Shown: positions 47,074-57,782 of the stretch, piece after piece
Layout of the letters: the number at the start of each line of letters is the position of its first letter
Position numbering within the stretch: the stretch's first letter is position 1
NCBI RefSeq assembly: GCF_010730575.1
Contig: NZ_AP022614.1
Span: 620,001-684,000 of the forward strand
Direction of reading: 5' to 3'
Length of the DNA stretch: 64,000 bases
Source: Mycobacterium parmense
Lineage (GTDB): Bacteria > Actinomycetota > Actinomycetes > Mycobacteriales > Mycobacteriaceae
Program-made: the position numbers and the translations under genes
The notes under the pieces: generated by a model
Told to the model about the DNA's origin: nothing
What the model saw: only the letters and a program-made list of their open reading frames with translations
The model's database searches: none

Positions 47074-47077
<4 letters not shown>

Positions 47078-48195
47078 CCGGTCAACCCCCATCGCTTGGC
47101 GATCAGCTCATGCGAGCGCAGCCGATCGGCATGGCGATGCGTCACGGAGGTGATCACCAGTTCGTCGGCATGGGTGACCCGGCGGAGCAACTCCAGCCGA
47201 TCGGCGACCTCGTCCGGATTGCCGACGAATTGCGTTGCGGTGCGGTCGGCGACCAGCGCCCGTTGGTCCTCGGTCAGAGCCTCGCATGTGTCAGGATCCG
47301 GGTAGGGGATCGCGCCCCGGCCGCTACGGATGGAGTACACCCACCTGCCGTAACTCGACGCCAGATGCCGCGCGGTTTCCTTGTCATCCGCGACCACGAC
47401 ATCGGCCGAGACCACCACGTAGGGCCGGGTCAGCCTGGTGGAGGGCCGAAAGGCCTCACGATAAGCGGCGATCGCATCGAGTGCGGTGCCGGGGGTGATG
47501 TGATAGCTCGCGACGAACGGTAACCCCCTGGCGCCCGCCACCTGCGCGCTCTGGCCTCTGGTACTGCCGAAGATCCATGGCGTCAGTTGGCCGTGTTCGC
47601 CTGGAACCGCGTGCAGTTGGTGGCCATCGACCGTGTACGTCCCGTCGAGCATCGCTTCGATATCGGCGATCTGGTCGGCGAAGTCGGCCGGTTTCGCGCA
47701 CGGCTGGGTGAGCACGGAACTCTGTGCCCGGGCCCATTCGCTTCTCATCAGCATCGTCGGGTCGAACGGAGCCGGGATGACGAGGCCGTCCACCTCATGG
47801 CACGGCGTTGGCGGGCTGGGAGGTATCGGCACCGGCGGCGCGGCGGCCTCTGTGCGCCGCTGCCCGGATCGGCCCAAGCCCATGTCGATACGACCGGGAT
47901 AAAGCGCGTCGAGTATGCCGAAGCTCTCCACCACCGCGATCGCCGTGGTATGGCCGATCTGCACCGCAGCGGATCCGACGTGGATACGGTCGGTGGCCGC
48001 GGCGATTTGGCCGATCAATGTCACCGGCGACGAGCTGGCTACCGCGACGAAGTGGTGCTCGGCAAGCCAGTAGCGCTTGTAGCCCCATCGCTCGGCGTGC
48101 CGGGCGAGATCAATGCTGTTGCGCAATGCCGCGGCGGCGTCGCTACCCGAGCTGATGGGGGCGAGGTCGAGGATTGACAGCGGGGTGACGGTCAC
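47074..48195 (-). CDS. LLM-class flavin-dependent oxidoreductase, MsnO8 type
   Basis: A 373-residue luciferase-like oxidoreductase with the N-terminal hallmark LSILDLAPISSGSDAAAALR and RYWLAEHHF. The mid-part has FGILDALYPGRIDMGLGRS and WIFGSTRGQSAQVA. This is the MsnO8 branch, whose substrates are poorly known. It starts with GTG 48195, overlapping the preceding gene as GTGA, and ends overlapping the next as ATGA. The three monooxygenases are therefore strictly coupled. Context points to sulfur scavenging. Confidence 0.88.
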
Positions 48196-49310
48196 GTCGG
48201 CACCGCATAACGATTGGGTGCGGAAGCCAATCCGAGACGTTCACGAAGCGTCTCGCCCACGCTGTAGCCGGTGCGGAACCTGCCGGCCCGCTGCAGCAAC
48301 GGCACCAGCTCGTCGACGATCAAAGGAAGGTCGATCGCGTTGACCGCCGGCCGCAGTCGCACCCCGTCGACTCCCGCGTCGTTCCAGGCAAGCAGAAGCT
48401 GAGCCAAATCGCTTAAGCAGCCGACGAACACGTGCGCATCCGACGAGATGGCCGCTGCCGGTGTCAGTGGATCGTCCGCCAAGGCGACCACCAGATCGGC
48501 GTAGGCCTTCAGCGGACGACCCGCGGTGCGCCGGGCGTTGGCAATGTCGGCCAGAATCGACCGCAGCGAGTCGTCGTTACGCGGGGTGATGAAGACGATA
48601 TCGGCGCCGGCGGAAGCGAACTCGTAGCTGCGTGAGGCGTGAGCCAATGCCGTGATCACCGGCTGGCCTTGTGGCGGCCGCGGGGTGATCGACGGACCCT
48701 TGACGGAGAAGTACCTGCCGGCGAAGTCGATGTAGTGCAACTTTTCCCGATCGATGTAGCGCCCGGTGGCGACGTCGCGGATGACCGCGTCGTCCTCCCA
48801 GCTGTCCCAGAGCCGCCGGACCACCTCCACCGCGTCGGCGGCCTCGTCGAACAAGTCCCGGTCAGCGGCCGGGCCTCTGCGTCCGAACAGCGCCGCCTCG
48901 TGGGCCGTACCGCTCACCCGCACCTGCCAGCCGGCCCGTCCGTGTGAGACATAGTCGAGTGTTGCAATCGATTTCGAGACGTGGAACGGCTCGGTGTGGG
49001 TGATCGTCGCAACCGGCACCAGACCGATGTGTTCGGTCAGAGGCGCGATACGCGCCGCGACCAAGACGGCGTCGGCGCGGCCGGCAAGCCGCCGCGGCGA
49101 GATTTCCGGCTGCCGGCCCGGCTGAACGTCCAGCGTGTCGTCGATCGTGAGGAAATCGAGCAGTCCACGCTCGGCTGTGCGCGCCAGGTCCGCCCAGTAT
49201 TGACCGCTCAGTTGTCCCCCGCCGGTCGCGTTGTGCGCGAAGGCATACCGCCAGGAATGCGGATGCCAACCGTAGCCGTCCAGACCCACCGCCAGGTGCA
49301 ACTCGGTCAT
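48192..49310 (-). CDS. Flavin-dependent monooxygenase (bacterial luciferase family)
   Basis: A third luciferase-like monooxygenase, about 372 residues from ATG 49310 (MTELHLAVGLDGYGWHPHSW). The frame is open to a GTG at 49370, and neither start has a clear ribosome site. Recognisable parts are FLTIDDTLDVQPG, TATLDYVSHGRAGWQ-like strands and the C-terminal LRERLGL typical of the NtaA group. It is first in the three-gene leftward operon, downstream of a striking dyad at 49374-49440. The substrate is unknown; an organosulfur compound is inferred from the neighbouring cysteine genes. Confidence 0.85.
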   Translation of the reverse strand: MTELHLAVGLDGYGWHPHSWRYAFAHNATGGGQLSGQYWADLARTAERGLLDFLTIDDTLDVQPGRQPEISPRRLAGRADAVLVAARIAPLTEHIGLVPVATITHTEPFHVSKSIATLDYVSHGRAGWQVRVSGTAHEAALFGRRGPAADRDLFDEAADAVEVVRRLWDSWEDDAVIRDVATGRYIDREKLHYIDFAGRYFSVKGPSITPRPPQGQPVITALAHASRSYEFASAGADIVFITPRNDDSLRSILADIANARRTAGRPLKAYADLVVALADDPLTPAAAISSDAHVFVGCLSDLAQLLLAWNDAGVDGVRLRPAVNAIDLPLIVDELVPLLQRAGRFRTGYSVGETLRERLGLASAPNRYAVPT

Positions 49311-49373
49311 GAGGGGCAACTGTCGAACGTGGGATGGTCGAGCGCCGGCGAGACGCGTTGCGGCTGACACCGT

Positions 49374-49555: not shown

Positions 49556-49984
49556 TCAGGGCCGAATCGTGCCCAATGACTGCAACGCCTTCCGCAGTTC
49601 AGCTACGGTCGGCACCCCGACGCTTCTGTATCTTCGCTTACCCTCGGCGTCGAAAACGAAGGTGGTTGGCAAGGACAGCACCGAGAGATGCTTCGCGGCC
49701 GCCGGGTTGGCGTCGATGTCGATCTCGACGTGTGAAACATCCGGGAGTTCGGCGCACACCTGATCGACGACGCGACGTACCGAGGCGCACGGACCGCACC
49801 AAACAGCGCTGAAGTGCACCACTGTCGGCCCGATCTGTGACAAGCCGAGGTACGGGGTGTCCTGGTCGGACACGGGCTCTGTTGCCCGCAGCGCACCGGA
49901 TCGCCGATTGATCGTTACCCCGAGCACCGAGGCGACGGCCAACGCCGCGACAATCGCCGTCACGACGATCCCCAGCGTGCTCAC
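49556..49984 (-). CDS. Membrane-tethered thioredoxin-like protein
   Basis: A 142-residue protein. An N-terminal hydrophobic helix (LGIVVTAIVAALAVASVLGV) anchors it, and a thioredoxin domain faces outward, with active site WCGPC and cis-Pro LPTTFVF. It starts with GTG 49984, 6 bp after cysE, and is last in the TQXA-cysK-cysE-trx operon. A role in reducing disulfides or recycling thiols for cysteine metabolism is inferred. Confidence 0.88.
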   Translation of the reverse strand: MSTLGIVVTAIVAALAVASVLGVTINRRSGALRATEPVSDQDTPYLGLSQIGPTVVHFSAVWCGPCASVRRVVDQVCAELPDVSHVEIDIDANPAAAKHLSVLSLPTTFVFDAEGKRRYRSVGVPTVAELRKALQSLGTIRP

Positions 49985-49990
49985 CCGGGC

Positions 49991-50677
49991 TCAGATGGAG
50001 AAGTCTTCGCCGTGCCAAACGCCGGCTTCCGGGGGTCGGATAACACGACCGGTCTCTTGCTGTCCATCGTTCAACGCCTCCAGTCTCGCGACCCGGGTGA
50101 GCAGGGACTGCAGGCTGACACCCACGAGGTCGGGCATCCTCGAGTCGTCAGGGCTACCCCGCCCTTGACGGCTGATGACCTGGCCCGGAACCCCGACCAC
50201 CACAGCGCTCGATGGCACTTCCTTCACGACGACGGCGTTGGCGCCGATCCGGCTGTCGTCCCCGATCTTGATGGCGCCCAGCACTTTCGCTCCGGCGCCG
50301 ATGACGACGCGATGACCGATCGTGGGGTGGCGCTTCCCCGTATCCCTACCGCTCCCGCCGAGGGTCACGCCGTGATAGATCGTCACGTCCTCGCCGATCT
50401 CGGCAGTTTCCCCGATCACAACGCCCGTCGCGTGATCGATGAACAGGCCCGGACCGAGGACGGCACCCGGATGGATGTCGACTCCCGTCAGGATCCGGGT
50501 GACCTCGTTGAGTGTTCGCGCGGCCAGTCGTGCGCCGCGATTCCAGAGCCAGTGGCTGACCCGGTGGCCCCAGATCGCGTGCACGCCCGGATAGGCAAGA
50601 ACCACCTGCAGCGTGCTGGGCCGGGCAGGGTCCCGCTGCTTCGCCACGCGGACGTCGTTACGCATGTCTGCGAGCAT
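49991..50677 (-). CDS. cysE: Serine O-acetyltransferase
   Basis: A 228-residue enzyme making O-acetylserine from serine and acetyl-CoA, the first step of cysteine synthesis. The left-handed beta-helix of hexapeptide repeats is clear (IDIHPGA-like [50 protein letters not shown]). The C-terminal tail is longer than in minimal CysE and ends in FSI. Many CysE proteins end in Ile, which docks into the CysK active site to form cysteine synthase complex. It lies 2 bp after cysK. Confidence 0.95.
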
Positions 50678-50679
50678 GG

Positions 50680-51612
50680 CTAACCGGCCAGGTCGGCGAA
50701 TAATGGCGTGCTCAGATACCGCTCGCCGAAGCTGGGCAGCACGACGACGACCAGCTTGCCGGCGTTTTCGGGCCGGCGAGCCACTTGCAACGCGGCGACC
50801 ACGGCCGCGCCCGAGGAGATGCCCGCCAACAACCCCTCCTCCCGGGCCAACCGCCGGGCCATCTCCAGCGAATCTTCGTTGCCGACCGTGATGACTTCGT
50901 CGACCAGATCCATGTCGAGCACCGGCGGGATGAATCCGGCGCCGATGCCCTGGATCGGGTGCGGCCCCTTTTGTCCGCCGGAGAGAACCGGTGAGGCGGC
51001 CGGTTCAACGGCCACGAACTGCGCTGAAGGCTTGCGTTCCTTGATCACCTGGGCGACGCCGGTGATGGTGCCCCCGGTACCCACACCGGAGACGAAGAAG
51101 TCGACCTTTCCCTCGGTGTCCCGCCACACCTCCTCAGCGGTGGTTTCGCGGTGGATCGCCGGATTCGCCGGGTTCTCGAATTGCTGAGGTATGAAATACC
51201 GTTGGTCGCTTTTGGCCATCTCTTCCGCCTTGGAGATCGCGCCCGCCATACCGTCGGCCCCGGGTGTCAGAACGATCTCAGCGCCGAATGCGCGCAACAA
51301 CATTCGTCGCTCCGTGCTCATCGTATCCGGCATGGTCAGCACGCACCGGTAGCCGCGCGCGGCGCAAACCATCGCCAGCGCAATGCCGGTATTCCCGCTC
51401 GTCGGCTCCAGGATGACCGTGTCGGGTTTTATCAGTCCTGCCTGCTCGGCCGCATCGATCATCGACACTCCAATGCGGTCTTTGACGCTGTTCGCCGGGT
51501 TGAAGAACTCCAGCTTGGCGACGACGTCTGCGACCGCGCCTTCAGTGACCCGGTTGAGTCGGACAAGGGGCGTGTTCCCGATCAGTTGCGTGACGTCATC
51601 GGCAATGCTCAT
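50680..51612 (-). CDS. cysK: O-acetylserine sulfhydrylase (cysteine synthase A)
   Basis: A 310-residue PLP enzyme that condenses O-acetylserine with sulfide to cysteine. The PLP lysine is in [10 protein letters not shown], the substrate loop is [12 protein letters not shown], and the phosphate-binding loop is [10 protein letters not shown]. It is very close to M. tuberculosis CysK1 (310 residues). It is second in a compact operon, 9 bp after the TQXA-like gene and 2 bp before cysE. Confidence 0.96.
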
Positions 51613-51621
51613 GAATCTTCC

Positions 51622-52896
51622 TTAAGCAATATCGGTTCGGGACTCTTCGGCGTGCCAGACGATGTCGAATTCGATGGCCACGTCGGTGGGCACGATCAGG
51701 GCGATGGGTGTCAGTCGATGTTGGGTCCCCTCCATCGCGACGCCGGTCAGGACTCGCCCGGCGAGGCCATGCGGTGTTGTAGCTGTCATTGTGGTCGCCG
51801 ACGCGCCGGGCGCCGGGCGCAGGTAGAAGTCGGTGCCAGGCTCGATGATGCCGCCGATCTCTAGACCCTCGGTGTCGACAAGCCTGTGTCCGGCAGCGAC
51901 ACTGAGCGTCAGTGGGATTGGCACTTGGAACGGTCCTATGAGTTCTGCCTCGGCGGTTGCTTGATTATCGACCAGTTGAAGTTCGTCCGTATCGGTTATG
52001 GCTTTGCGTGCCCCGCTCAACAAGTAATTGTAGAGGTGCACGATCCGGTCGGCATTGGGGTAATGGCGGGCACCGGTCAGCCAGAAGCGAACGTGGTCGA
52101 CCACCGCGGCGGCGGCGGTCGTCGCGACCAAACGGTAGTAGCGGTAGCCGCGCCCGCCGCGCCCGTGACTGCTGCCCGAGAGCGTGGTGGCCACACCGAG
52201 CGTGCGCCGATGGCGGCCCTCGCCGGCGCCGGCAATGAATGACGATGTGGAAATGTCCTGCCAGGTAAGGCCGTTGGCTGACTTCTGCAGCTTCAAGTTG
52301 ACCTCGGCATCAGATGCCACCCACACGGAGTAACCACCGATCTGCGGCTCGCCGTCGAACTCGAAGGTGATCACCGGCCCCGGGGCCCGGCGTACCGCGA
52401 CCGGAACGTTGAGAGGCCGGGTACCCAGGTTCAACCCGTTGGTGAAATGCCAGATCGAGGCCTGGGTCGCGGCAATCGCTTCGTGTTCGCTGATGTTGGC
52501 CGGTCCCAGTGGATAGCCCGCCCGGCGCACTCGGCGGCTCAAGTGGGCGATGGGTTGCCTTGGGAAAGAGTTGCGCAGAATCCAGTCCACCCCTGCTTCG
52601 CCGCCCCGGATGCGCAGATGCGGAAGCGCAGACCACGAGCCGAGGGCATAGCGCGATGGATGGTGGGGCGCGATACCCGTGAAGTCCAGCGAGTACGCAT
52701 CGACGTTGGGGTTGACCCTGATGAGGTCGGTGCGCGCGCTGCTGCCGTCCTCAAACACGACTTCGTCCACGGTGTGGGAGTAGGTGCCACCGCGGTAGCG
52801 CGTCATGTGGGAGAGGTCGGTGGCCGGCCGCATCAGTATGCGATGCGTCGTCGCCACCTGCGCCGATGCTCGGCTGCACATGGGTAATACGGTCAT
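51622..52896 (-). CDS. TQXA (thioester-like) domain protein lacking the thioester cysteine
   Basis: A 424-residue protein. The first half has the TQXA architecture of Gram-positive thioester adhesins: TYSHTVDEVV, AYSLDF near 67-72, and AIAATQASIWHFTNG near 140-155. In active domains the first motif contains Cys (YCxD), which bonds to the Gln; here it is Ser, so a thioester should not form. The rest is a beta-rich, galactose-binding-like region. I see no signal peptide and no LPXTG sorting signal, so it may be cytoplasmic. It opens the cysK-cysE-trx operon and is divergent from the encapsulin gene. The start is uncertain; ATG 52806 is an alternative. Confidence 0.75.
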   Translation of the reverse strand: MTVLPMCSRASAQVATTHRILMRPATDLSHMTRYRGGTYSHTVDEVVFEDGSSARTDLIRVNPNVDAYSLDFTGIAPHHPSRYALGSWSALPHLRIRGGEAGVDWILRNSFPRQPIAHLSRRVRRAGYPLGPANISEHEAIAATQASIWHFTNGLNLGTRPLNVPVAVRRAPGPVITFEFDGEPQIGGYSVWVASDAEVNLKLQKSANGLTWQDISTSSFIAGAGEGRHRRTLGVATTLSGSSHGRGGRGYRYYRLVATTAAAAVVDHVRFWLTGARHYPNADRIVHLYNYLLSGARKAITDTDELQLVDNQATAEAELIGPFQVPIPLTLSVAAGHRLVDTEGLEIGGIIEPGTDFYLRPAPGASATTMTATTPHGLAGRVLTGVAMEGTQHRLTPIALIVPTDVAIEFDIVWHAEESRTDIA

Positions 52897-53256
52897 CGGA
52901 GCTCGATCTTCCTGAATGATTGACTACACCCACGTAACAGCCGCAGGCGTTCCGGTGATACCAGCCGGGCAAAGGGCGGGATTTCTACAGCGTCGGACGG
53001 CGTCAGGAAATCAACAACAACGACAACAACAGTCCAAGGCGAGGCGGCGCGTGAGGACAAGGCGCGGCTGTGTGGCCTGTTGCATAGGCCCCACTATATG
53101 GCATCCGAACCCGCCGGTTATTTCGCTCATTGGCGCTCCTAAATCTATCCCGCCGCATTTTGCTCGCTTACGCTCGGCGGGCGCGAGCACACAGCGTGCG
53201 CGAGCATCAGGCTGCCCGGCCTCGCCGCAGCATCGAAAAATGATGGAAGGGACGAG
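52897..53256. promoter_or_regulatory. 360-bp divergent control region between the TQXA and encapsulin operons
   Basis: No credible gene is present. It holds a CAA-rich run (53012-53030) and two mutually exclusive hairpins: CCCGCCG (53149-53155) with CGGCGGG (53175-53181), and TGCTCGC (53161-53167) with GCGAGCA (53183-53189 or 53200-53206). A strong GGAAGGGA ribosome site precedes the encapsulin ATG. It must contain promoters for both directions. Confidence 0.5.
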
Positions 53257-54180
53257 ATGACTTCTGCTCAAACCGAGTCTCAGGCACTCGGCGATCTTGC
53301 AGCCAGGCAGCTTGCCAACGCGACAAAGACGGTCCCGCAGCTCTCCACCATCACGCCGCGCTGGTTGCTGCATTTGCTCGGTTGGGTACCGGTGGAGGCC
53401 GGTATCTACCGCGTGAACCGTGTGGTGAACCCGGAGCAGGTCGCGATCCACAGCGATGAAGGAGTCGATACCGAGCAACCGCTGCCGCAGACCTACGTCG
53501 ACTACGAGACCAGCCCCCGCGAATACACGCTGCGCTCCATCTCGACGCTGCTCGACGTACACACCAGGGTCTCTGACCTGTACTCCAGCCCGCATGACCA
53601 GATCACCCAGCAGCTCCGACTGACCATCGAGACCATCAAGGAGCGTCAGGAATTCGAGCTGGTTAACAGCCCCGAGTATGGGTTGCTCTCGCAGGTGACG
53701 CCCGAGCAGACGATCCAGACACTGGGCGGTGCACCCACGCCGGACGACCTCGACGCGCTGATCACCAAGGTCTGGAAGACGCCGAGTTTCTTCCTGACCC
53801 ATCCGCTGGGTATCGCCGCGTTCGGCCGCGAGGCCACCTACCGTGGCGTGCCGCCGGTTGTCGTCAGCCTCTTCGGCGCACAGTTCATCACCTGGCGTGG
53901 CATCCCGCTGATCCCGTCGGACAAGGTGCCGGTTGAAGAAGGCAAGACCAAGTTCATCCTGGTGCGTACCGGTGAGGAACGCCAGGGCGTCGTGGGCCTC
54001 TTCCAGCCGGGCCTGGTGGGAGAGCAGGCGCCGGGGCTCTCGGTGCGGTTCACCGGCATCAACCAGTCGGCGATCGCGACCTACCTGGTCACCCTCTATA
54101 CGTCCCTGGCTGTCCTCACCGACGACGCTCTCGCCGTGCTCGACGACGTCGCTGTGGACCAGTTCCATGAGTACAAGTGA
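53257..54180 (+). CDS. Family 2A encapsulin shell protein (major membrane protein I)
   Basis: A 307-residue protein matching the M. leprae and M. avium major membrane protein I family. This is now known as a family 2A encapsulin, an HK97-fold shell that self-assembles into a nanocompartment. Segments such as QTYVDYETSPREYTLRSIST, VSDLYSSPHDQITQQLRLT and LFGAQFITWRGIPLIPSDK are typical. There are no transmembrane helices, so the old name is misleading. It overlaps the downstream cysteine desulfurase by 14 nt; in family 2A systems the desulfurase is the packaged cargo. The function is likely sulfur storage or controlled sulfur release. Confidence 0.9.
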   Translation: MTSAQTESQALGDLAARQLANATKTVPQLSTITPRWLLHLLGWVPVEAGIYRVNRVVNPEQVAIHSDEGVDTEQPLPQTYVDYETSPREYTLRSISTLLDVHTRVSDLYSSPHDQITQQLRLTIETIKERQEFELVNSPEYGLLSQVTPEQTIQTLGGAPTPDDLDALITKVWKTPSFFLTHPLGIAAFGREATYRGVPPVVVSLFGAQFITWRGIPLIPSDKVPVEEGKTKFILVRTGEERQGVVGLFQPGLVGEQAPGLSVRFTGINQSAIATYLVTLYTSLAVLTDDALAVLDDVAVDQFHEYK

Positions 54181-56146
54181 GTACCGAGCGGTAGACGCCG
54201 AGAGCGACCTGCCCATCAGCGCTGCGGAACTCGCCGCGCTGGCCAGCCAGCTCTACGCGGCAAGCATCCGGCCGGGCACCGACAGCCCTCCGCAGTCCGC
54301 GCCGGTGGCCCCTCGCGGCAGCGTGCCGGACACGACGGCGGCCGCCGCGGCCGGGCAGTCCGCGGCGGGCGCCGCTGATGTGTACCCGGGGCCGGTGCCG
54401 GCGTTGGGTTTCACCGACATATATGTTCCGGCTCCCACATCCTCAGAACCCGAAGCGCCACCGCAGGCGGTGCCCGTTGCCCCGCGGGGCAGCGTGCCGG
54501 ACACGACGGCGGGCGCAGCTGATGTGTACCCGGGGCCGGTGCCGGCGTTGGGTTTCACGGACATATATGTTCCGGCTCCCACATCCTCAGAACCCGAAGC
54601 GCCACCGCAGGCGGTGCCCGTTGCCCCGCGGGGCAGCGTTTCCCCGCCGACCAGTGATCTGAGTGCCTTCGCGGTGCCCCACGGGATCGTGCCGACGGTG
54701 CCCGGCGCGCTGGCCGGCTATGCCCCGACCGCCCCGGTGGGTCTGCTGGGCCCGAGCGGCTCCGTGCCGAACGCGCTGCCCGACGCACCGTCGGTGACCG
54801 ACCTGGGCTGGTCCAATGGCCCGCCATCCGGTGCCACGATCGCCTCGGGCGGAGACGAGGACAGCTACTACTTCCTGAGCGCCACCGAGAACGTTCCGCG
54901 GTTGCCGGACACGCACGAGGTGTTTGACGTCAATGCGGTGCGCGCGGACTTCCCGATCCTCAAGGAGGTCGTCAACGGCAAGCCGCTGATCTGGTTCGAC
55001 AACGCCGCGACCACTCAGAAGCCGCAAGTGGTGATCGACCGGCTGGTGCGGTTCTACGCTCACGAGAACTCCAACATCCACCGGGCCGCACACGAGCTGG
55101 CGGCGCGGGCCACCGACGCCTACGAAGAAGCGCGTGACACGGTGGCCGAATTCATCGGTGCTCCGAGCTCCGAGAACGTCGTGTTCCTGCGCGGCACCAC
55201 CGAGGCGATCAACCTGGTGGCGCATGCCTGGGGTGGAAAACACCTGCGACCGGGCGACGAGATCGTCATCACCCATCTTGAGCACCATGCGAATATCGTT
55301 CCTTGGCAATTGATTTCGCAGAAGACCGGCGCGATTCTGAAGGTGGCTCCGATCGATGACGCGGGCAACCTGTTGCTGAGCGAGTTCGAGGAGCTGCTGG
55401 GGCCGCGGACCAAGCTGGTCGCGGCCAGCCAGGTGTCCAACGCATTGGGCACGGTTGTCCCGGTGGAGAAGGTCGTGGAGTTGGGTCACCGGTACGGCGC
55501 CCGGGTTCTCATCGACGGCGCGCAGTCGATCCAGCACATACCGGTAAACGTTGCGGAGCTCGGCGCCGACTTCTTCGTGTTCTCCGGGCACAAGATCTAC
55601 GGGCCCACCGGGATCGGTGCGCTCTACGGCACCGAAGAGGCATTGACCGAGACGCCGCCGTGGCAGGGCGGCGGTCACATGATCGCCGATGTCACACTCG
55701 AACGGTCGCTGTATCAGGGGCCGCCCACCAAGTTCGAGGCCGGCACCGGAAACATCGCTGACGCCGTCGGCCTCACGGAGGCGCTGCGCTACGTGCAACG
55801 GCTGGGAGTCGAGCGCATCGCTTCCTACGAACACGCGTTGCTCGAGTACGCGACGCCTCGCCTGGCCGACATCCCCGGGGTTCGCCTGGTGGGCACAGCG
55901 ACTGAGAAGGCGAGCGTGCTGTCGTTCGTGCTAGCGGGACACGAGCCACTTGAGGTGGGCAAAGCGCTCAACGCGGAAGGCATCGCGGTGCGAGCCGGCC
56001 ATCACTGCGCACAGCCCGCTCTGCGCCGCCTCGGGCTGGAGGCCACCGTTCGCCCGTCGTTCGCGCTCTACAACACATTCGAGGAGATCGACGTCTTCCT
56101 ACGCGCTGTTCGCCGGATCGCCGAGGGTGGCACGAACGTCGGTTAG
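54167..56146 (+). CDS. SufS-like cysteine desulfurase with long N-terminal encapsulin-targeting region
   Basis: A 659-residue protein. Residues 1-250 are disordered-looking, Pro/Ala/Ser-rich, with an N-terminal ISAAELAALASQLYAAS helix and two near-identical 48-residue repeats. Residues 253-659 form a class V aminotransferase of SufS type. The PLP lysine is in SGHKIYGPTG (near 474) and the catalytic cysteine in RAGHHCAQP (near 611). It converts cysteine to alanine plus a persulfide. The extra N-terminus matches the cargo-loading region known from family 2A encapsulin desulfurases. The ATG at 54167 lies inside the encapsulin gene, so stoichiometry may be set by coupling. Confidence 0.92.
   Translation: MSTSEYRAVDAESDLPISAAELAALASQLYAASIRPGTDSPPQSAPVAPRGSVPDTTAAAAAGQSAAGAADVYPGPVPALGFTDIYVPAPTSSEPEAPPQAVPVAPRGSVPDTTAGAADVYPGPVPALGFTDIYVPAPTSSEPEAPPQAVPVAPRGSVSPPTSDLSAFAVPHGIVPTVPGALAGYAPTAPVGLLGPSGSVPNALPDAPSVTDLGWSNGPPSGATIASGGDEDSYYFLSATENVPRLPDTHEVFDVNAVRADFPILKEVVNGKPLIWFDNAATTQKPQVVIDRLVRFYAHENSNIHRAAHELAARATDAYEEARDTVAEFIGAPSSENVVFLRGTTEAINLVAHAWGGKHLRPGDEIVITHLEHHANIVPWQLISQKTGAILKVAPIDDAGNLLLSEFEELLGPRTKLVAASQVSNALGTVVPVEKVVELGHRYGARVLIDGAQSIQHIPVNVAELGADFFVFSGHKIYGPTGIGALYGTEEALTETPPWQGGGHMIADVTLERSLYQGPPTKFEAGTGNIADAVGLTEALRYVQRLGVERIASYEHALLEYATPRLADIPGVRLVGTATEKASVLSFVLAGHEPLEVGKALNAEGIAVRAGHHCAQPALRRLGLEATVRPSFALYNTFEEIDVFLRAVRRIAEGGTNVG
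54374..54639 (+). repeat. 144-bp tandem repeat in the desulfurase targeting region
   Basis: The unit beginning GCTGATGTGTACCCGGGG starts at 54374 and again at 54518. The copies are identical over about 120 bp except for one base (CACCGAC versus CACGGAC). A degenerate third piece (GCAGCGTGCCGGACACGACG) precedes copy 1. It encodes 48 residues containing PGPVPALGFTDIYVPAP, in frame. The near identity indicates a recent duplication. Confidence 0.92.
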
Positions 56147-56549: not shown

Positions 56550-57782
56550 GTGTCACTGACCACCGCCAAAATGGCCGGCTCCGCGAACGTCCCGACGCCA
56601 TTGCGCGACCACTCGGCGGCCGTAGGCGTCGCCGAAGAGTTCGCCGCCGCCGTCAAGCCCGGTGCGGCTGACCGCGATCGGGTTGGTGCGGTGCCGCGCG
56701 CCGAGCTAGCCGACTTCGACCGTTCCGGCCTTGCGGCCATCACGGTGCCCGTAGGGCAAGGAGGCGGCGGGCTCGGTCCGCGCACCCTGGCGGACGTGAT
56801 CAGGGTGATCGCCGCCGCGGACCCGGCGCTGGCCCAGATTCCGCAAGGCCACTTCCTTGCCGTCGACGTCCTGCGCCTGCTGGGCACGCCCTATCAGCGG
56901 GATCGGATCCTGCCCGCGGTGGTGGAGGGCGGCCGCATCGCGCCGGTGGCGGCCGAGCGTGGCGGTCGCCATGCCCAGGATCTCAAGACGCGCCTGGTGG
57001 AAGACGCCCCAGGCTGGCGGTTGGAGGGCGTCAAGTACTACTGCACCGGGGCGATCACTTCGCGATGGCTTGCCGCGACCGCGCTGGACCCCGACGACCG
57101 CCTCGTGCTCGTTTTTCTCGATCGCGGTGCCCCCGGGGTGACCATCACAGAGGACTGGGCCGCAATGGGGCAGCGGGCCACGGTCAGCGGGACAACCACT
57201 TTCGACGGAGTCCGGGTCGACTCGCAGCTGGTGGTGCCTTACGGCACGGCATTCGCAGGCCCGCAGCTGCTCGGCGCGCGCACCCAGTTGGTCCACGCGG
57301 CCATCGAGGCCGGCATCGCCGAAGGCGCGTTGGCCGATGCCGGAGACTTCGTGCGCACACGTAGTCGACCGTTCTTCGAGGCCGTACGGTCGGGGAAGGT
57401 CAGCGCCGCCGCCGACGACCCCTTCATTCTGCGGGAATTCGGCAAGCTCGCTACCCAAACCCGCGCCGCGGTACAGCTCCTGTGTTGGGCCGCCGACGTT
57501 CTGGAGGACATCGGGCTTCATCCGGCAGACGCGGATGCCGCGGCGCGTGGGTCGATCGCGGTCGCCCAGGCCAAGGCATTCGCCAGCGACGTCGCCGTCG
57601 ACGTGGCCAGCCAGCTCTTCGCAGTGACGGGTACCAGCGGAACAGACCGGCGCTTTGCGCTGGATCGACATTGGCGCAACGCGCGCACCCACAGCGTCCA
57701 CGACCCCGTGCACTGGAAATATCATCACGTCGGGGCATGGGAAATCGCCGGTGTCGCGCCGCCCAACCACCCCCAGATTTGA
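56550..57782 (+). CDS. SfnB/DszC-type acyl-CoA dehydrogenase-like sulfur acquisition oxidoreductase
   Basis: A 410-residue flavoprotein of the acyl-CoA dehydrogenase fold. It has an N-terminal helical domain (LADFDRSGLAAITVPVGQGG), a mid beta domain (GVKYYCTGAITSRW) and a C-terminal helical bundle ending RNARTHSVHDPVHWKYHHVG. This is the SfnB/DszC branch, which acts as a flavin-dependent monooxygenase on sulfur compounds instead of dehydrogenating acyl-CoA; the usual catalytic Glu context of acyl-CoA dehydrogenases is not evident. It starts with GTG 56550 behind GGGAG. The neighbouring monooxygenases and cysteine genes support a sulfur-scavenging role. Confidence 0.87.
   Translation: MSLTTAKMAGSANVPTPLRDHSAAVGVAEEFAAAVKPGAADRDRVGAVPRAELADFDRSGLAAITVPVGQGGGGLGPRTLADVIRVIAAADPALAQIPQGHFLAVDVLRLLGTPYQRDRILPAVVEGGRIAPVAAERGGRHAQDLKTRLVEDAPGWRLEGVKYYCTGAITSRWLAATALDPDDRLVLVFLDRGAPGVTITEDWAAMGQRATVSGTTTFDGVRVDSQLVVPYGTAFAGPQLLGARTQLVHAAIEAGIAEGALADAGDFVRTRSRPFFEAVRSGKVSAAADDPFILREFGKLATQTRAAVQLLCWAADVLEDIGLHPADADAAARGSIAVAQAKAFASDVAVDVASQLFAVTGTSGTDRRFALDRHWRNARTHSVHDPVHWKYHHVGAWEIAGVAPPNHPQI

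Follow-up and report, generated by a model that had tools for sequence, protein, structure and literature searches.

What part do family 2A encapsulins play in sulfur handling, and how would sulfur stored in them be reached? Both questions bear on a locus of Mycobacterium parmense within the stretch of 64,000 nucleotides analysed here (contig NZ_AP022614.1, positions 620,001 to 684,000), which we call the window. The core of the locus is known, since the pairing of shell and desulfurase has been published, also for mycobacteria, with M. smegmatis named as one that has it (PMC8049743), and the encapsulin alone is an ordinary described member. The link to cysE is likewise known in general, because serine O-acetyltransferase is reported, together with rhodanese, as the most enriched accessory gene of family 2A desulfurase operons (PMC8346489). 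Beside this core stands a divergent gene for a TED-like protein, and such a partner would give the question a gene, a condition and a direction of regulation. Neither this gene and the poly-cysteine uORF before it nor a tandem duplication in the cargo figured in the sequence-only reading. The features are collected in Table 1.

Table 1. Features of the encapsulin locus of M. parmense, with coordinates in the window
Feature	Coordinates	Strand	Basis
Thioredoxin-like protein, 6 nt after cysE	49556..49984	-	Pfam Thioredoxin, 47.6 > 23.5
cysE, serine O-acetyltransferase, 2 nt after cysK	49991..50677	-	TIGR01172, 241.9 > 210.65
cysK, cysteine synthase A, 9 nt after the TED gene	50680..51612	-	TIGR01139, 478.5 > 350.95
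TED-like protein, 424 aa, divergent partner	51622..52896	-	Pfam TED, AF2 model
Leader of the TED gene, predicted pairing of the uORF end with the ribosome-binding site TCAGGAAG	52894..53085	-	Fold, pair counts
Leaderless-type poly-cysteine uORF, 24 aa, ending in CCCRCC	53011..53085	-	Sequence, conservation
Family 2A encapsulin shell protein, MMP-I type, 307 aa	53257..54180	+	NF041162
Cargo cysteine desulfurase, 659 aa, SufS-like domain at about residues 252-652	54167..56146	+	NF041166
Pro/Ala-rich N-terminal region of the cargo, residues 1-245, probable cargo-loading region	54167..54901	+	Composition, homology
144-nt (48-residue) tandem duplication in the cargo N-terminal region	54363..54639	+	Tandem Repeats Finder

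The shell and its desulfurase cargo

Judged from its sequence, the locus encodes an encapsulin system of family 2A. The shell protein scores 501.2 bits with the encap_f2a model NF041162 over residues 11-306, against a curated cut-off of 380, and 321 bits with the SrpI-like Pfam family PF19307, and its closest solved homologues in the PDB are the MMP-I chains 9ksl and 8wol (E about 5e-185), with 8won also found; the MMP-I-type family 2A shell gene of the sequence-only reading is thus borne out. The family 2B model is also passed by a small amount (402.5 bits vs 400), the better of its two stretches covering profile positions 210-449 of 450, and Pfam finds no second domain, and hence no cNMP domain, in the shell. 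There is one 2A shell match in the genome. By analogy with its homologues, the shell protein may assemble into a closed icosahedral compartment.

For the cargo, the model of family 2A cargo cysteine desulfurases NF041166 gives 829.8 bits (cut-off 800) and the SufS model TIGR01979 gives 535.9-537.7 bits (cut-off 475.1). By these profiles it is a SufS-type cysteine desulfurase, as had been proposed. The PDB entry 8kg1 aligns over residues 241-656 with 813 bits, and the cargo has the motifs SGHK and GHHC, which we take to be those of the PLP lysine and of the catalytic cysteine and which align with solved desulfurases. A different gene of the genome scores higher on the SufS model (559.5 bits), so the encapsulated desulfurase is an extra one. 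With ATG 54167 as its start, the cargo gene overlaps the shell gene by 14 nt (54167-54180), in agreement with the length first claimed. The same length recurs in 68 of the 76 loci with shell and cargo (best 80 of at least 565 relatives); it is therefore not due to chance, and this recurrence was used to set the start codon.

The residues P, A, G, S and T make up 62% of cargo residues 1-245, compared with 36% of the remainder. Of the disordered N-terminus of about 250 residues that the sequence-only reading had described, the long region stands, and its disorder is suggested by this composition and by what PMC8049743 gives for a homologue. The further claim that the N-terminus packages the enzyme finds support in the published work on the N-terminal domain of the S. 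elongatus homologue (PMC8049743), by analogy with which this is probably the loading region. By eye, LAALASQLY at its start and YYFL at its end look like the published N-terminal motifs LARLANEFFS and AASPYYFLDG (PMC8049743); searched against solved chains, the N-terminus has no match.

Within this region the motif PVAPRG occurs three times, at residues 48, 105 and 153. Among 65 mycobacterial rows, including the window, the copy number varies from one to three, with three copies in 40 rows, two in 22 and one in 3, as counted by the pattern A[PL]R[GN], which degenerate copies, present in some cases, escape. The spacing is 56-61 residues in 77 of the 102 gaps, with 41 at exactly 57, and the length of the whole region ranges from 134 to 260 residues in the same rows. 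The tandem duplication in the window cargo (1.9 copies, 98% matches) covers the second and third PVAPRG copies. P0121, a database protein of 611 aa, is identical to the cargo except for exactly one missing 48-residue unit; this may be a real loss or an assembly collapse, the two being not separable here.

Spread of the system

The shell scan kept the best 80 of at least 565 relatives, and shell and cargo are both present in 76 of these 80 loci; no cargo domain is seen before the locus end in L036, L038, L057 and L071. On the level of the genus, 90 of 248 genomes have a shell match, 86 of them over the cut-off, and 87 have the cargo over its own cut-off, so the system is patchy in the genus.

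Several side observations concern its history. Two copies of shell and cargo seem to be present in some genomes (L095 and L096; G098 with L136 and L137; G184; G241). In G184 and G241 the shell match ends after about 35 residues, partly at contig ends or beside a run of N, a pattern that looks like misassembly of repeated copies. The identities of shell and cargo domain to the window are out of step in a few loci (88% and 93% in L085, 91% and 94% in L066, 92.5% and 88% in L046), which hints at recombination within the locus. In addition, full-length cysK and cysE stand beside a partial TED gene, shell or cargo in L134 (G105), L138 (G139), L139 (G233) and L140 (G089), and these remains suggest that the genus has lost the system more than once.

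The TED-like protein

The protein encoded divergently from the shell matches Pfam TED (PF08341) with 34 bits against a cut-off of 22, and all 53 members of the TED-like alignment match this family at E<=0.1. Its AF2 model has a pLDDT of 87.5, and the Foldseek rows that we used, namely those of TEDs and discoidin-like domains, show a TED fold with a discoidin/CBM32-like domain inserted at residues of about 160-276. Since the TQxA helix motif is not the site of the thioester Gln according to PMC4450167, we compared the TED-like proteins with seven secreted TEDs of the order. The position of the thioester Cys is Ser69 in the window and Ser in all 73 TED-like proteins, whereas it is Cys in 7/7 of the secreted ones. 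The Gln column of the secreted TEDs holds Arg in 33 of the 53 TED-like members, Gln being outside the four commonest residues there, and the column beside it has Gln in 13 of 53. An LPXTG-like wall anchor is found in 0/53 TED-like proteins vs 7/7 secreted TEDs, and the N-terminal hydropathy, a crude measure, has a mean of 0.64 and a highest value of 1.51 in the former vs 1.67-2.28 in the latter. By these two crude measures, hydropathy and LPXTG motif, there is no evident signal peptide or anchor.

Two earlier placements of the thioester Gln were rejected. Gln145 belongs to the TQxA motif, a helix motif without the thioester Gln (PMC4450167), and a lost Gln at Thr396-Pro397 disagrees with the alignment to the secreted TEDs, which puts the Gln at column 394; at either of the latter placements the TED-like proteins have no conserved Gln. 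Compared with a TED adhesin, then, the protein has the fold, lacks the thioester Cys and Gln, and by the crude measures above lacks secretion signal and wall anchor, which suggests an adhesin-type fold without the reactive bond that has been put to use inside the cell.

Linkage of the TED-like gene to the shell

Among the best 80 of at least 565 relatives, 72 loci have enough flank, and a TED-like homologue lies divergently upstream of the shell in 67 of them; in L101 it has the other orientation, and it is missing at four loci (L106, L107, L109 and L110). At E<=1e-20, a TED match is found in 94 of the 248 genus genomes, and these include every one of the 90 that have a shell match. The four with a TED match and without a shell match (G070, G089, G139 and G233) hold TED pieces only, and G089 has a short piece of the shell as well. 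A single stop falls within the matched TED stretch in seven genomes (G041, G087, G149, G157, G175, G206 and G213). G206 has shell and TED, but its cargo domain is distributed over two frames. The TED gene is matched over almost its full length in G076 and G105, although both have a broken shell: that of G076 is matched in two separate frames, with 52-55% for the cargo region, and that of G105 is matched up to residue 92, with cargo matches from domain residue 175 onward in two frames. G098 has two shell and cargo copies and one TED gene, the second copy being without it.

In the order-level search, the TED-like gene is present in 10 of 10 genus genomes with a shell over the cut-off, and the TED match is absent in two genomes of other families with such a shell, G276 and G323. 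These two, together with the four loci above, show that the shell can exist without the TED-like gene. Order-level TED hits in the remaining 14 genomes are all short (E from 2.6e-15 to 6.1e-11); ten such loci were taken (L152-L161), and the seven readable ones encode TEDs with signal-like N-termini and anchor motifs. The co-occurrence leads us to think that the shell has a cytoplasmic partner in the TED-like protein, which would act with the sulfur of the shell when cysteine is short, although co-occurrence and linked loss overstate the case, since related genomes share history. By titles and the beginnings of abstracts among the papers listed, we found no publication on an encapsulin with a thioester-domain/TQXA protein in Mycobacterium.

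A poly-cysteine uORF ahead of the TED gene

The uORF encodes MQQATQPRLVLTRRLALDCCCRCC, and TATAGT lies 7 nt ahead of its ATG; the pattern TATAAT-ATG has no match in the window. It is a leaderless-type short ORF with a Cys run before a gene, at a predicted transcription start. In 71 of 73 loci a similar poly-Cys uORF precedes the TED gene; the exceptions are the two Gordonia loci, and the uORFs of L100 and L101 pass a loose filter yet differ from the remaining ones. As a control, 16 of 3000 random stretches of 700 nt gave such a uORF, a number that may include the locus itself because the stretches were drawn from the whole window. In M. smegmatis, poly-Cys leaderless ORFs are reported to be cysteine-responsive attenuators (Canestrari 2020, as described in PMC9031893 and PMC9094748), and the uORF is probably a cysteine sensor and attenuator of the TED gene. 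It would govern the TED side; there is no sign in the letters of control over the shell gene.

For the leader we compared 45 of 71 leaders, leaving out rows whose TED start codon was judged mis-set (for example L045, L057, L060, L071 and L092) and others. The whole leader folds no more stably than its shuffles (z-score +0.91). Between the uORF end and the ribosome-binding site, 91.6% of cells pair vs 88.6% in shuffles, a level reached by 0 of 500. Of the 44 distinct leaders, 23 have UA and 21 have CG at pair 101/246, with no mispair, and this is the only pair of the stem that covaries on both sides; pairs changed on both sides are no more numerous than in shuffles (370/500), and a slide by -1 gives a higher covariation score (0.213) than this pairing (0.167). 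The mean energy of the duplexes between uORF end and leader is -17.6 kcal/mol vs -13.4 for shuffled arms; since 82% of shuffles also pass -10, we rely on the covarying pair and not on duplex energy.

Cysteine synthesis and other neighbours

The TED, cysK, cysE and thioredoxin-like genes probably form one operon, as their close spacing suggests, and the thioredoxin-like protein has by eye a hydrophobic N-terminus. Among the best 80 of at least 565 relatives, cysK-cysE follows the TED gene in 27 of 71 loci with enough flank and the cargo gene in six of the 71 (L056, L074, L083, L084, L099 and L103), and the thioredoxin-like gene is at the same place in 15 of 70. That cysK-cysE occurs in two arrangements among mycobacteria and their kin speaks for a role that cysteine synthesis and the encapsulated desulfurase share. 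No cysK is found behind the divergent TED gene in 39 of 66 loci with longer flank (again of the best 80 of at least 565), so the TED gene stays beside the shell without cysteine genes as well.

Two further neighbours were considered. The acyl-CoA dehydrogenase-like gene at 56550-57782 (+) falls just under the cut-off of the SfnB sulfur acquisition model (425 vs 430.9 bits), and its tie to the locus was dropped since at 50% identity it is at the same place in 0 of 76 loci (best 80 of at least 565 relatives). At 47074-49370 (-), two adjacent ORFs of 373 and 392 aa look by eye like flavin-dependent monooxygenases, and at >=80% identity they are near five of 76 loci (L035, L037, L044, L046 and L092; best 80 of at least 565).

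Proposed mechanism and alternatives

As a whole, we find it on balance probable that the locus is an encapsulin with a divergent, cysteine-governed TED operon whose TED-like protein is a partner of the shell. The compartment would be formed by the shell protein, with the desulfurase docked inside by its N-terminal region and taking sulfur from cysteine, as shown for a homologue. Across the divergent promoter region would lie the operon of the domesticated TED-like protein, followed in M. parmense by cysK, cysE and the thioredoxin-like gene. When cysteine is plentiful, the ribosome would clear the uORF, whose end would then pair with the TED ribosome-binding site and keep translation low; when cysteine is scarce, the ribosome would stall on the Cys codons and the site would be freed, so that a lack of cysteine should increase both the TED-like protein and cysteine synthesis. 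The TED-like protein would then work with sulfur held or made in the shell. A fuller version, in which an ex-adhesin that lost its thioester and gained a discoidin-like domain is a cytoplasmic helper, induced by starvation, that docks on the shell and releases or retrieves sulfur for CysE/CysK, with the PVAPRG copies tuning the loading of the desulfurase, we regard as distinctly unlikely.

The TED-like gene may instead be a mere neighbour, a member of the cysteine regulon kept in place by a shared promoter region and common descent and having no role in the compartment. Its position before cysK in 27 of 71 loci (best 80 of at least 565 relatives), the shells without it outside the genus and its nearly end-to-end match in two genomes with a broken shell, G076 and G105, all speak for this, and the decay of whole blocks can be linked deletion; but the gene is beside the shell in the 39 of 66 loci (of the same best 80) with no cysK found behind it, and the four genomes with a TED match and without a shell match hold pieces only. 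We therefore consider the mere-neighbour explanation rather unlikely. What happens to the sulfur is a separate matter. The compartment may store it as persulfide or elemental sulfur, as the sequence-only reading suggested, and an A. baumannii 2A encapsulin reportedly stores elemental sulfur; or the compartment may store none and isolate a desulfurase that passes persulfide on to one particular acceptor or curbs the breakdown of cysteine during starvation, which we hold possible but less likely than not. For isolation without storage, the alternatives in PMC8049743 include transfer to an acceptor and the protection of cysteine in the cytosol, and the operons of family 2A desulfurases are enriched in rhodaneses (PMC8346489), whereas Pfam finds no rhodanese among the eight window proteins scanned, shell and cargo included. 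As for the 48-residue duplication, the chances appear even that it is an ordinary change of linker length or a difference of short-read collapse, without effect on loading: N-terminal lengths vary widely among the mycobacterial rows, and P0121, from contigs of <=69,992 bases, is exactly one unit short as a collapsed repeat would give, yet a free linker need not show the recurrence of PVAPRG at 56-61 residues.

Comparison with known systems

The locus is like SrpI and CyD of S. elongatus (PMC8049743) in shell family, desulfurase cargo, long N-terminal loading region and a link to sulfur starvation, and unlike it in the repeated PVAPRG motifs of the mycobacterial N-terminus; the divergent TED-like gene and the poly-Cys uORF are not mentioned for that system in the available part of PMC8049743, where polysulfide storage is one model among others for a family 2A encapsulin. 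Closest to both proteins among solved structures is the mycobacterial MMP-I/desulfurase complex MAP2121c/MAP2120c (PDB 8wol, 8won, 9ksl and 8kg1; reported by Leite 2015, as cited in PMC8049743), from which the M. parmense cargo differs by its 48-residue tandem duplication. In contrast to the operons of PMC8346489, as far as that source is available, cysE of M. parmense stands in a divergent operon behind the TED-like gene.

Unlike the Gram-positive thioester-domain adhesins (PMC4450167), the TED-like proteins have no thioester Cys, conserved Gln, or evident signal peptide or anchor, and they have 127-135 residues (10 rows) where the seven secreted TEDs have 12-19. A uORF before the TQXA protein MAB_0219 of M. 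abscessus is listed in PMC4974804, the available part of which does not mention an encapsulin. With the polycysteine leaderless sORF attenuators of mycobacteria (PMC9031893, PMC9094748) the uORF shares the leaderless-type start, the run of Cys codons and the downstream gene, and it is set apart by this gene, which encodes a shell-linked TED-like protein, though Canestrari 2020 may already cover this leader. With its conserved partner and the probable cysteine sensor of that partner, the mycobacterial locus is a variant of these encapsulin systems that deserves study.
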